Below are positions 39,625-50,603 of a stretch of 64,000 nt of DNA, one piece after another (within the stretch, counting starts at the first letter, position 1; every line of letters begins with the position of its first letter). The translations under genes were made by a program, and so were the position numbers. The stretch comes from Methanococcus voltae (lineage in GTDB: Archaea > AGJL01 > Methanococci > Methanococcales > Methanococcaceae): NCBI RefSeq assembly GCF_024807655.1, contig NZ_JANUCR010000005.1, positions 1 through 64,000 on the forward strand, written 5' to 3'. Under the pieces are notes generated by a model. The model searched no databases and was not told where the DNA came from. It saw only the letters and a program-made list of their open reading frames with translations.

Positions 39625-39856
39625 AATTTCACCATTTAATATAATATTGAATATATATTTATTTTTATTATATATAATTAATATAATTATGTTTAATTCA
39701 TTGTATGTAGCTAATATATGAGTTTAACGATAATCATAGATTAATTACCCGAAAATTAATAAAAAAAGAATATTAAATAAAATTAAACTAATTTATAAAA
39801 ATAAGTGGGTATTGGCATATATAAGTATATATAACAGTTTAGATTATGTAATACAT

Positions 39857-40087
39857 AGCTTCAATAAACCGACCTACATGGAGCCTATGGATGACCTCGC
39901 AATGATAGAGGGTTCGAATTTGAAGCAATATTATCGTATAAACCAACTTTTGGGCGAGTTATGAGAGTTTGCGTTGGCTTGCAATGACCATAATACAGCA
40001 AAAGTTAGTAAACTGGTCTCGACATTTAGGGTTAGCCAATTGACATGGTATATTCCAAGTATGAAATTTGGTGTTGATGTCGAGATA
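39857..40087 (+). ncRNA. Candidate structured RNA of unknown type
   Basis: G and C are clearly more frequent here than in the flanking spacer, which in A+T-rich methanogens marks structured RNA. Three local stems are perfect. GCTTCAA (39858-39864) pairs with TTGAAGC (39920-39926). CCAAC (39943-39947) pairs with GTTGG (39973-39977). TCTCGACAT (40017-40025) pairs with ATGTCGAGA (40077-40085), enclosing CCAA/TTGG and TGG-TATATT-CCA. GCAATGA recurs at 39899 and 39981. It lacks the conserved cores of RNase P RNA and SRP RNA and is not a tRNA. Strand is assumed from the downstream gene. A decayed gene is an alternative. Confidence 0.4.
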
Positions 40088-40227
40088 AATTTTTAGAACT
40101 ATTTTTAAGCATAATTAAAAAATTTAATCAAAGTTAATATATTTTGTCAAAATTTAACAAATGAAGGTATTATCGAACATATTATAACATATATACATAT
40201 ATATTAGAAATCTAACAATATTATATA

Positions 40228-40241
40228 TGAACAATTGTTCA
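40228..40241. promoter_or_regulatory. SmtB/CadC-type operator
   Basis: TGAACAATTGTTCA is a perfect 14-base palindrome that fits the TGAACA-type inverted repeat bound by SmtB/CadC/ZiaR repressors. It lies about 66 bases before the repressor start and immediately upstream of a TATA-like AATATATT, so a bound repressor would block transcription factor B or polymerase. Confidence 0.65.
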
Positions 40242-40306
40242 ATTGATATAATATATTAAATAATATACCCCTAAGAATAATAAAAATTAAAAATAAAGGT
40301 AATAGT

Positions 40307-43010: not shown

Positions 43011-43183
43011 TTATACCAATTTTAACATATTTTACATAATTTTATTTTTATTTTAATCTCCTTTTGTAATTTATACTTATTTTTTTACTTGTTTATAGTA
43101 TGCAATATTTAAATAGATTGGAAGAATAGTATAATATGGTAATATTTTAATTGATTTGGATGTTTAAGGACTATGGTGGAAAT

Positions 43184-43774
43184 ATGAAATTATTATTTGG
43201 TACGGGAAATATAAACAAAGTAAAAGAAGCTAAATTAATCTTAAAAAATTCTAAATATGAAGTAGAACAGTTGAAAATACCATATCCCGAACTACAGGGT
43301 ACTCTCGAAGAAGTAGCTAAATATGGTGCTAAATATGTTTATGACGAATATATGTCCAAAAACGAAAAAATTTCTAATGAAAATGTAAGTATAATTGTAG
43401 AAGATAGTGGTTTATTCATAGAATCATTGCGAGAATTTCCCGGAACTTACTCAAAATATGTTCAAATGACATTAGGTAATGAAGGAATTTTAAAACTTCT
43501 TGGAACGTGTAAAAAGAGGAATGCGTATTTTAAAACCGTTATAGGATATTACGACGGCAAAGAAATCAAAACGTTTTCTGGAACGGTAGAAGGAACGATA
43601 TCCTATAAAATGAAATCTAACGGATATGGTTTTGCTTATGATAGCATATTTGTGCCAAAAGGTTGCGAAAAAACTTTTGCAGAAATGCTACCTGCTGAAA
43701 AAAGTGATATATCTCACCGAAAAAACGCATTTATGGAATTTAAAAGATATATAGATTCATTATCTAACGAATAA
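43184..43774 (+). CDS. rdgB: Non-canonical purine NTP pyrophosphatase (RdgB/HAM1)
   Basis: It hydrolyses ITP, dITP and XTP to keep deaminated purines out of nucleic acids. The 196-residue protein has [12 protein letters not shown] (6-17), [20 protein letters not shown], and a C-terminal [10 protein letters not shown]. The ATG at 43184 follows GGTGGAAAT; in-frame starts further upstream (43151) lack a site. It is a single gene. Confidence 0.95.
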
Positions 43775-49600: not shown

Positions 49601-49675
49601 CGCCCTGGCCGGGATTTGAACCCGAGTCACAGGAGTGACAGTCCTGTATGATAGGCCGAGCTACACCACCAGGGC
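49601..49675 (-). tRNA. tRNA-Asp (GUC), distal copy
   Basis: Full cloverleaf: acceptor GCCCTGG/CCAGGGC with discriminator G, anticodon stem CAGGA/TCCTG with loop CTGTCAC (anticodon GTC), T arm with GGGTTCAAATCCC. 3' CCA is not encoded. It is identical to the copy at 49974-50048. Confidence 0.97.
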
Positions 49676-49688
49676 ATAATAAAAAAAG

Positions 49689-49807
49689 TGATCGGCAGCG
49701 TCATCTTGTTCCCACCATATGGCAGTACTTAAGAAATCGCTGGAGGGCTTAATTTCCGAGATCGGAATGGGATCGGATGGGACACCTCCGCTATAACCGC
49801 CGTATCA
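49689..49807 (-). rRNA. 5S rRNA, distal copy
   Basis: About 119 nt, with closing helix TGATACGGC/GCCGATCA and the archaeal 5S core CCCATTCCGATCTCGGAA then TTAAGCCCTCCAGCG. It differs from the other copy at one base (plus-strand A at 49795, G at 50168). It lies between tRNA-Lys and tRNA-Asp, outside a 16S-23S operon. Confidence 0.96.
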
Positions 49808-49817
49808 ACAGCTAAAA

Positions 49818-49891
49818 CGGGCCCGAAGGGATTCGAACCCTCGACCGCCTGGTTAAAAGCCAGGCGCTCTACCAGACTAAGCTACGGGCCC
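49818..49891 (-). tRNA. tRNA-Lys (UUU), distal copy
   Basis: Cloverleaf with acceptor GGGCCCG/CGGGCCC, discriminator G, anticodon loop CTTTTAA (anticodon TTT) closed by CCTGG/CCAGG, and T arm GAGGGTTCGAATCCCTT. CCA is not encoded. It is identical to the copy at 50191-50264. Confidence 0.97.
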
Positions 49892-49973
49892 AAGTCTTAC
49901 GAAAAGTACACAAATACCTATGCTATAATTATAAGTTAAATAGTGCAGAATTATATTTCATATAAATATAAAG

Positions 49974-50048
49974 CGCCCTGGCCGGGATTTGAACCCGAGT
50001 CACAGGAGTGACAGTCCTGTATGATAGGCCGAGCTACACCACCAGGGC
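49974..50048 (-). tRNA. tRNA-Asp (GUC), proximal copy
   Basis: Same 75 bases as the distal copy: acceptor GCCCTGG, anticodon GTC, discriminator G. It follows the proximal 5S gene in the transcript. Confidence 0.97.
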
Positions 50049-50061
50049 ATAATAAAAAAAG

Positions 50062-50180
50062 TGATCGGCAGCGTCATCTTGTTCCCACCATATGGCAGTA
50101 CTTAAGAAATCGCTGGAGGGCTTAATTTCCGAGATCGGAATGGGATCGGATGGGACACCTCCGCTATGACCGCCGTATCA
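50062..50180 (-). rRNA. 5S rRNA, proximal copy
   Basis: Same extent and fold as the distal 5S gene, with one base change near the 5' end (GGCGGTCATAG here, GGCGGTTATAG in the distal copy). Confidence 0.96.
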
Positions 50181-50190
50181 ACAGCTAAAA

Positions 50191-50264
50191 CGGGCCCGAA
50201 GGGATTCGAACCCTCGACCGCCTGGTTAAAAGCCAGGCGCTCTACCAGACTAAGCTACGGGCCC
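50191..50264 (-). tRNA. tRNA-Lys (UUU), proximal copy
   Basis: Identical to the distal tRNA-Lys, anticodon TTT. Only five bases separate it from the upstream tRNA-Tyr gene, so both come from one transcript. Confidence 0.97.
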
Positions 50265-50269
50265 AAGAG

Positions 50270-50343
50270 TCCCGCGAGCCGGATTTGAACCAGCGACATG
50301 CGGATCTACAGTCCGCCGTTCTACCAGTCTGAACTATCGCGGG
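50270..50343 (-). tRNA. tRNA-Tyr (GUA)
   Basis: Acceptor CCCGCGA/TCGCGGG with discriminator A, anticodon loop CTGTAGA (anticodon GTA) closed by GCGGA/TCCGC, T arm with TGGTTCAAATCCGG. The C1-G72 pair is typical of archaeal tRNA-Tyr. No intron. Confidence 0.96.
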
Positions 50344-50417
50344 ATAATTCTTGGATATGCTTCTGATATGCTATTTCCTAACATTTACGTATGCTTATTT
50401 ATATTTATTAAATTAAA

Positions 50418-50494
50418 TGGTGGGCCTGCCCAGATTCGAACTGGGGTTTCAGGATCCCAAATCCCAAAGGATGACCAGGCTACCCCACAGGCCC
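50418..50494 (-). tRNA. tRNA-Pro (UGG), CCA encoded
   Basis: Acceptor GGGCCTG/CAGGCCC, discriminator A followed by an encoded CCA (50418-50420). Anticodon loop TTTGGGA (anticodon TGG), T arm CCCAGTTCGAATCTGGG. It is the only member of this operon with a templated CCA. Confidence 0.95.
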
Positions 50495-50529
50495 AAGTAA
50501 AAGTCTTAAGTCTATTGCCTAAGAACTCA

Positions 50530-50603
50530 AGCCCCAGGGGGGATTCGAACCCCCGACCACCTGATTACAAGTCAGGCGCTCTACCAGGCTGAGCCACTGA
50601 GGC
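50530..50603 (-). tRNA. tRNA-Thr (UGU)
   Basis: Acceptor GCCTCAG/CTGGGGC with discriminator T, anticodon loop CTTGTAA (anticodon TGT) closed by CCTGA/TCAGG, T arm GGGGGTTCGAATCCCCC. It is the first gene of the operon, about 15-20 bases behind the start box. Confidence 0.96.

Follow-up and report, generated by a model that had tools for sequence, protein, structure and literature searches.

A very probable HgcG/Pab40-related box H/ACA guide RNA, with three tandem hairpins conserved across Methanococcales, in a divergent spacer of Methanococcus voltae

In the stretch of Methanococcus voltae DNA analyzed here (64,000 nucleotides, referred to as the window), a divergent spacer separates a ppaC-like DHH/DHHA2 gene, on the minus strand, from an arsR-type regulator gene followed by a P-type ATPase gene. 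The segment at 39857-40087 lies in this spacer, with arsR about 200 nt downstream on the same strand, and a Ham1 gene is found at 43151-43774, with arsR and the ATPase gene between it and the segment. The initial annotation had described a G+C-elevated block in an AT-rich spacer, and this description holds, the G+C content being 39.4% in the segment, 15.0% and 15.2% in its flanks (39625-39850 and 40090-40306, respectively) and 28.5% in the window. The features assigned to the locus are collected in Table 1. Upstream of the arsR-type gene and outside the RNA, the palindrome ATGAACAATTGTTCAATTGAT (40228-40252) is likely an ArsR/SmtB-type operator.

Table 1. Features assigned to the RNA locus (window coordinates; guide and target assignments are predictions)
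Feature	Position	Strand	Details and basis
TATA-box promoter region (CATATATAAGTATATATAAC)	39818..39837; box aligned with relatives ~39827-39836	+	comparison of homologs
RNA gene extent	~39855 to 40089	+	three hairpins M1-M3, ~240 nt
H/ACA hairpin M1	39855..39930	+	lower stem 39858-39864/39920-39926; AUA box 39928-39930; covariation, covariance model, target scan
M1 5' guide AAACCGA	39866..39872	+	pairs with 23S UCGGUUU; co-change with target in Methanocaldococcus
M1 3' guide UCGA	39914..39917	+	pairs with 23S UCGA immediately 5' to the target U
H/ACA hairpin M2	39942..40012	+	lower stem 39942-39951/40000-40009; AAA box 40010-40012; covariation, covariance model, target scan
M2 5' guide GGGCG	39952..39956	+	pairs with CGCCC of 23S A-loop hairpin
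M2 3' guide CAGC	39996..39999	+	pairs with 23S GCUG
H/ACA hairpin M3	40016..40089	+	lower stem 40016-40025/40077-40086; AAA box 40087-40089; covariation, covariance model
M3 5' guide AGGGUUA	40028..40034	+	pairs with 23S UAACCCU
M3 3' guide GUUG	40073..40076	+	pairs with 23S UAAC; GUUA in nearly all relatives
Two T5 tracts directly after M3	40090..40106	+	sequence

When the relatives were aligned, the segment resolved into three hairpins in tandem, each with an ANA box after a lower stem of about 10 bp and with a two-sided pocket below a kink-turn-like upper stem, and all three share the size (~65-75 nt) and the internal two-sided pocket of archaeal box H/ACA sRNAs. In fact, a lower stem of about 10 bp, an ANA box and a kink-turn-like element are described features of archaeal H/ACA RNAs (PMC3608112, PMC7991803). 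In the window genome, the M1 lower stem comprises just 7 uninterrupted pairs (GCTTCAA with TTGAAGC), and in M3 TCTCGACAT pairs with ATGTCGAGA over 9 bp (40017-40025 with 40077-40085). The 7-bp and 9-bp stems, together with several short ones, had already been pointed out and do exist, but they cover only part of the structure. The ANA boxes directly 3' of the lower stems read AUA, AAA and AAA in M1 to M3 of the window, M2 and M3 thus carrying AAA and not ACA, and AUA or ACA in relatives, with ACA in Methanocaldococcus. Additionally, a kink-turn-like GA / NNN-GA signature is conserved in the upper stems, reading GGA...GAUGA in M1 and being of the UGA...GAUGA type in M2 and M3, as expected of the K-turn or K-loop (tandem G-A) of archaeal H/ACA RNAs, a putative L7Ae site.

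The structure was evaluated by covariation in the individual hairpin alignments. The H/ACA structure forms pairs in 90.5, 86.6 and 83.4% of the alignment cells of M1, M2 and M3, with 9, 11 and 15 double-change pairs, respectively; since the structures behind these counts were traced manually on the sequences, these values are biased toward a high pairing percentage and less so toward double changes. The M1 and M3 structures were hand-drawn because RNAalifold, on the A3 alignment, mispaired part of the kink-turn, with the apical stem lost. For all three hairpins, none of 500 shuffles reached the covariation score and sliding the partner lowered it by roughly 40% or more, and the lower stems paired with their own partner better than in any of 2000 partner permutations. 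On the other hand, the single-sequence folding energy is unremarkable (z = -0.48 on the plus strand), and the minus strand even gave a better z-score, a result that we regard as misleading. Therefore, folding alone is no proof of an RNA, and it is the comparative data, namely covariation and order-wide conservation, that supply it. The compensatory changes and the homologs found throughout Methanococcales, both named beforehand as checks, bear out the earlier proposal of a structured non-coding RNA.

The chance that the segment is a decayed protein gene, tRNA or mobile element is practically negligible. Such a reading could call on GGGTTCGAAT, which resembles a tRNA T-loop, and on short ORFs of 35-50 aa that overlap the segment, but the M1 3' guide accounts for the T-loop-like letters, Rfam finds no tRNA in the segment, no second good copy was found in the window's genome, and base-pair covariation explains the sequence. 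The covariation of the stems across relatives led to the rejection of all three forms of this reading.

In a DNA search, every one of the seven Methanococcus genomes (75-99% identity) and most of the remaining Methanococcaceae proved to carry the segment, and a separate search of Methanococcales with the RF00064 covariance model recovered the same loci, scoring at most 47 bits in the three-hairpin homologs. Covariance models built for M1 and M2 each match 32 of 394 archaeal genomes, all of them Methanococcales, and the two hairpins are adjacent almost everywhere; on the window, these models score 85.7 and 68.9 bits, respectively, its own sequence being part of the training sets. The array is not of constant composition. 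M1 and M3 are present and M2 was not detected in G008, whose sole copy (L045) adjoins ppaC and arsR, and G010 carries a full three-hairpin copy plus an M1+M3 copy lacking M2 (L044). In G013, an extra M1 on the minus strand (L198, C2:873900-874250), with a mutated guide, AAACCAACC, and a lower stem that is not intact, is a decayed relic of a second M1 copy.

The gene order around the RNA bears on whether it belongs to the metal operon. The genus labels Methanocaldococcus and Methanotorris are used here for relatives as inferred from sequence and kinship. The ppaC gene adjoins the RNA in Methanococcus, in the Methanotorris-like G009 and G011, where Ham1 directly follows the RNA, and in Methanocaldococcus. 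Methanocaldococcus-like genomes have the RNA in two parts, with M1 and M2 (L024-L027) beside ppaC and a lone M3 (L028-L035) just upstream of Ham1. The simplest history would be an older order ppaC - RNA - Ham1, which was split in Methanocaldococcus and into which the metal operon was inserted in Methanococcus. A TATA-type box, from which the RNA would be transcribed, lies about 38-45 nt upstream of ACCGACC, at near-constant spacing, in all examined homologs with an M1, those of Methanocaldococcus among them, and the T5 tracts downstream of M3 may act as an archaeal terminator. It is extremely unlikely that the segment instead serves the arsR/metal-ATPase operon as a 5' leader or riboswitch-like element, as its distance of about 200 nt from arsR on the same strand could suggest, together with the presence of arsR downstream of the RNA in several Methanococcus relatives. 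No arsR/ATPase match was found beside the RNA in the Methanotorris-like and Methanocaldococcus genomes, where it adjoins ppaC, and the RNA is set apart from arsR by the T tracts and an AT-rich gap. Together with its own TATA box, a ppaC neighborhood without the arsR/ATPase operon argues that the RNA is not the leader of that operon. Thus, of the two options left by the initial annotation, an independent sRNA or part of a longer leader, the first is retained and the second is not.

In Rfam searches of the window at gathering thresholds, only tRNAs and 5S rRNA were detected, all outside the segment, in agreement with the previous statement that no housekeeping RNA is present. At relaxed cut-offs, a single family, HgcG/Pab40 (RF00064, typed as H/ACA), aligned with the segment end to end, at 22.2 bits (E-value of 4e-4 for that stretch), so the suggested covariance-model search was silent at Rfam thresholds and informative only below them. 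The HgcG gathering threshold of 77 bits is reached neither by the segment nor by any Methanococcales genome, which is why the segment looked unassigned and explains why Rfam misses the family in this order. In P. abyssi, HgcG is located at 382332-604 (PMC4652768), the same coordinates as the HgcG locus of G082 in our set. The genomes covered by the phylum-level search lie outside Thermococcales, and a pattern scan for the 3' hairpin of HgcG in named genomes gave mostly unrelated matches. The M3 model, built from Methanococcales, matched, at each of the HgcG loci searched, the 3'-terminal hairpin (E ≤ 5e-7), and this M3-like third hairpin was found in Thermococcaceae and an Archaeoglobus-like family; the M1 and M2 models gave no confident match to the HgcG loci.

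HgcG/Pab40 of Pyrococcus, Thermococcus and Archaeoglobus-like genomes likewise joins three H/ACA hairpins in tandem in a single RNA. The third, Pab40.3, directed to L2016 in helix 69, has the guide and target of M3. The first does not share its target with M1, since anchoring L2016 on helix 69 places P. abyssi L2588, the position attributed to Pab40.1, 8 nt upstream of the uridine predicted for M1, and the second, Pab40.2, directed to L1932 (PMC4652768), differs from M2, which points to the A-loop and has no clear counterpart. That HgcG and the Methanococcales array descend from a common ancestor is supported by their shared hairpin order and by the full-length alignment; M1 would presumably have been re-aimed relative to the first HgcG hairpin. 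Additionally, an M. jannaschii H/ACA motif guides L2015 (PMC4652768); its guide and target, and those of its Methanocaldococcus relatives (L028-L035), are the ones of M3, but there the RNA is separate, has one hairpin and lies next to Ham1, whereas M3 is here part of a three-hairpin RNA.

Candidate targets were obtained by scanning every uridine of the 23S and 16S rRNAs against all distinct guide variants, with guide boundaries fixed after a first scan and the 16S sequence taken from a relative, the window's own assembly yielding no 16S match. Each hairpin has one best site with complementarity on both sides of an rRNA uridine, always in 23S: CUCGA-U-G-UCGGUUU for M1 (mean score 26.6, next 19.1; P = 0.002 against permuted guides), GCUG-U-U-CGCCCA for M2 (24.7, with 23.7 for the adjacent U; P = 0.003) and UAAC-U-A-UAACCCU for M3 (24.6, next 21.1; P = 0.003). 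These sites, located through E. coli landmarks, are presumably U2504, U2554 and U1915 in E. coli numbering, and the predicted targets would therefore be the U2504 equivalent in the peptidyl-transferase center for M1, U2554 (or U2555) of the A-loop for M2 and U1915 of helix 69 for M3. The E. coli position equivalent to the M1 target is believed to be modified by RluC (pseudouridine 2504), a stand-alone enzyme used by bacteria at this position, and the equivalent of the M2 target by yeast snR10 (pseudouridine 2923), a eukaryotic two-hairpin snoRNA, both unlike the three-hairpin archaeal RNA.

The guides are nearly invariant among homologs while the stems covary, and the M1 guide changes together with its target, AAACCGA/UCGGUUU in Methanococcus becoming GAACCGA/UCGGUUC in most Methanocaldococcus and AGCCGA/UCGGCU in G025. 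In G031 the M1 pairing is retained via a G-U pair, and G009 and G011 are exceptions, with a guide mismatched to the target at position 7. The M2 guide variants, in which GGGCG becomes GGGUG and CAG becomes UAG, still pair through G-U. In the window genome and its two closest relatives, GUUG replaces GUUA in the M3 3' guide (position 40076), giving a G-U pair with the target. It is very unlikely that the hairpins, although derived from H/ACA RNA, no longer guide modification and serve instead as an rRNA-folding chaperone or regulator. Other roles have been proposed for archaeal guide RNPs (PMC3608112), and hairpins can evidently be lost, as in G008 without M2 and G013 with its decayed extra M1, but the near-invariance and co-change of the guides, along with a pocket, spacer and ANA box like those of productive guides, speak for continued guiding.

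Altogether, we are highly confident that the segment encodes an HgcG/Pab40-related box H/ACA guide sRNA of about 240 nt, whose three hairpins are predicted to direct 23S pseudouridylation. In H/ACA RNPs, the kink-turn is the binding site of L7Ae, and the stems together with the ANA box are that of Cbf5, which isomerizes the uridine left unpaired when the pocket pairs with rRNA. A TruB_N/Cbf5-family gene is present in the genome. Each hairpin would assemble with Cbf5, Nop10, Gar1 and L7Ae and pair, through its open pocket, on both sides of one 23S uridine, and Cbf5 would convert the pocketed uridine to pseudouridine, with M1 acting at the U2504 equivalent, M2 at U2554 and M3 at U1915. Contrary to the earlier suggestion of a new RNA, the class is already known, and it is this version that appears to be uncatalogued. 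It is probable that the RNA represents a Methanococcales-specific HgcG relative in which M3 kept the helix-69 target, M1 and M2 serve U2504 and A-loop U2554, M1 tracks its target, and the array was split in Methanocaldococcus.

Judged from sequence, a function can be proposed for an RNA that seems to lack annotation, in a methanogen genus amenable to genetics, with three predicted pseudouridines in the catalytic core of the ribosome that are directly mappable. The family also offers a clean example of a guide co-evolving with its target, and of an array of guides divided between lineages. If correct, this assignment would show that archaeal guide arrays can be re-aimed, split and trimmed, and would reveal an RNA-guided archaeal route to position 2504.

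In some Archaeoglobus-like HgcG loci (L122, L125 and L129), the first hairpin also gives weak to moderate matches (29-39 bits) to the M3 model, which hints at a possible origin of the array's hairpins by duplication. Elsewhere in the window, inside a tRNA cluster, a minus-strand tRNA-5S-tRNA unit (49601-50603) with two 5S copies, whose flanking tRNAs score identically, is apparently duplicated.
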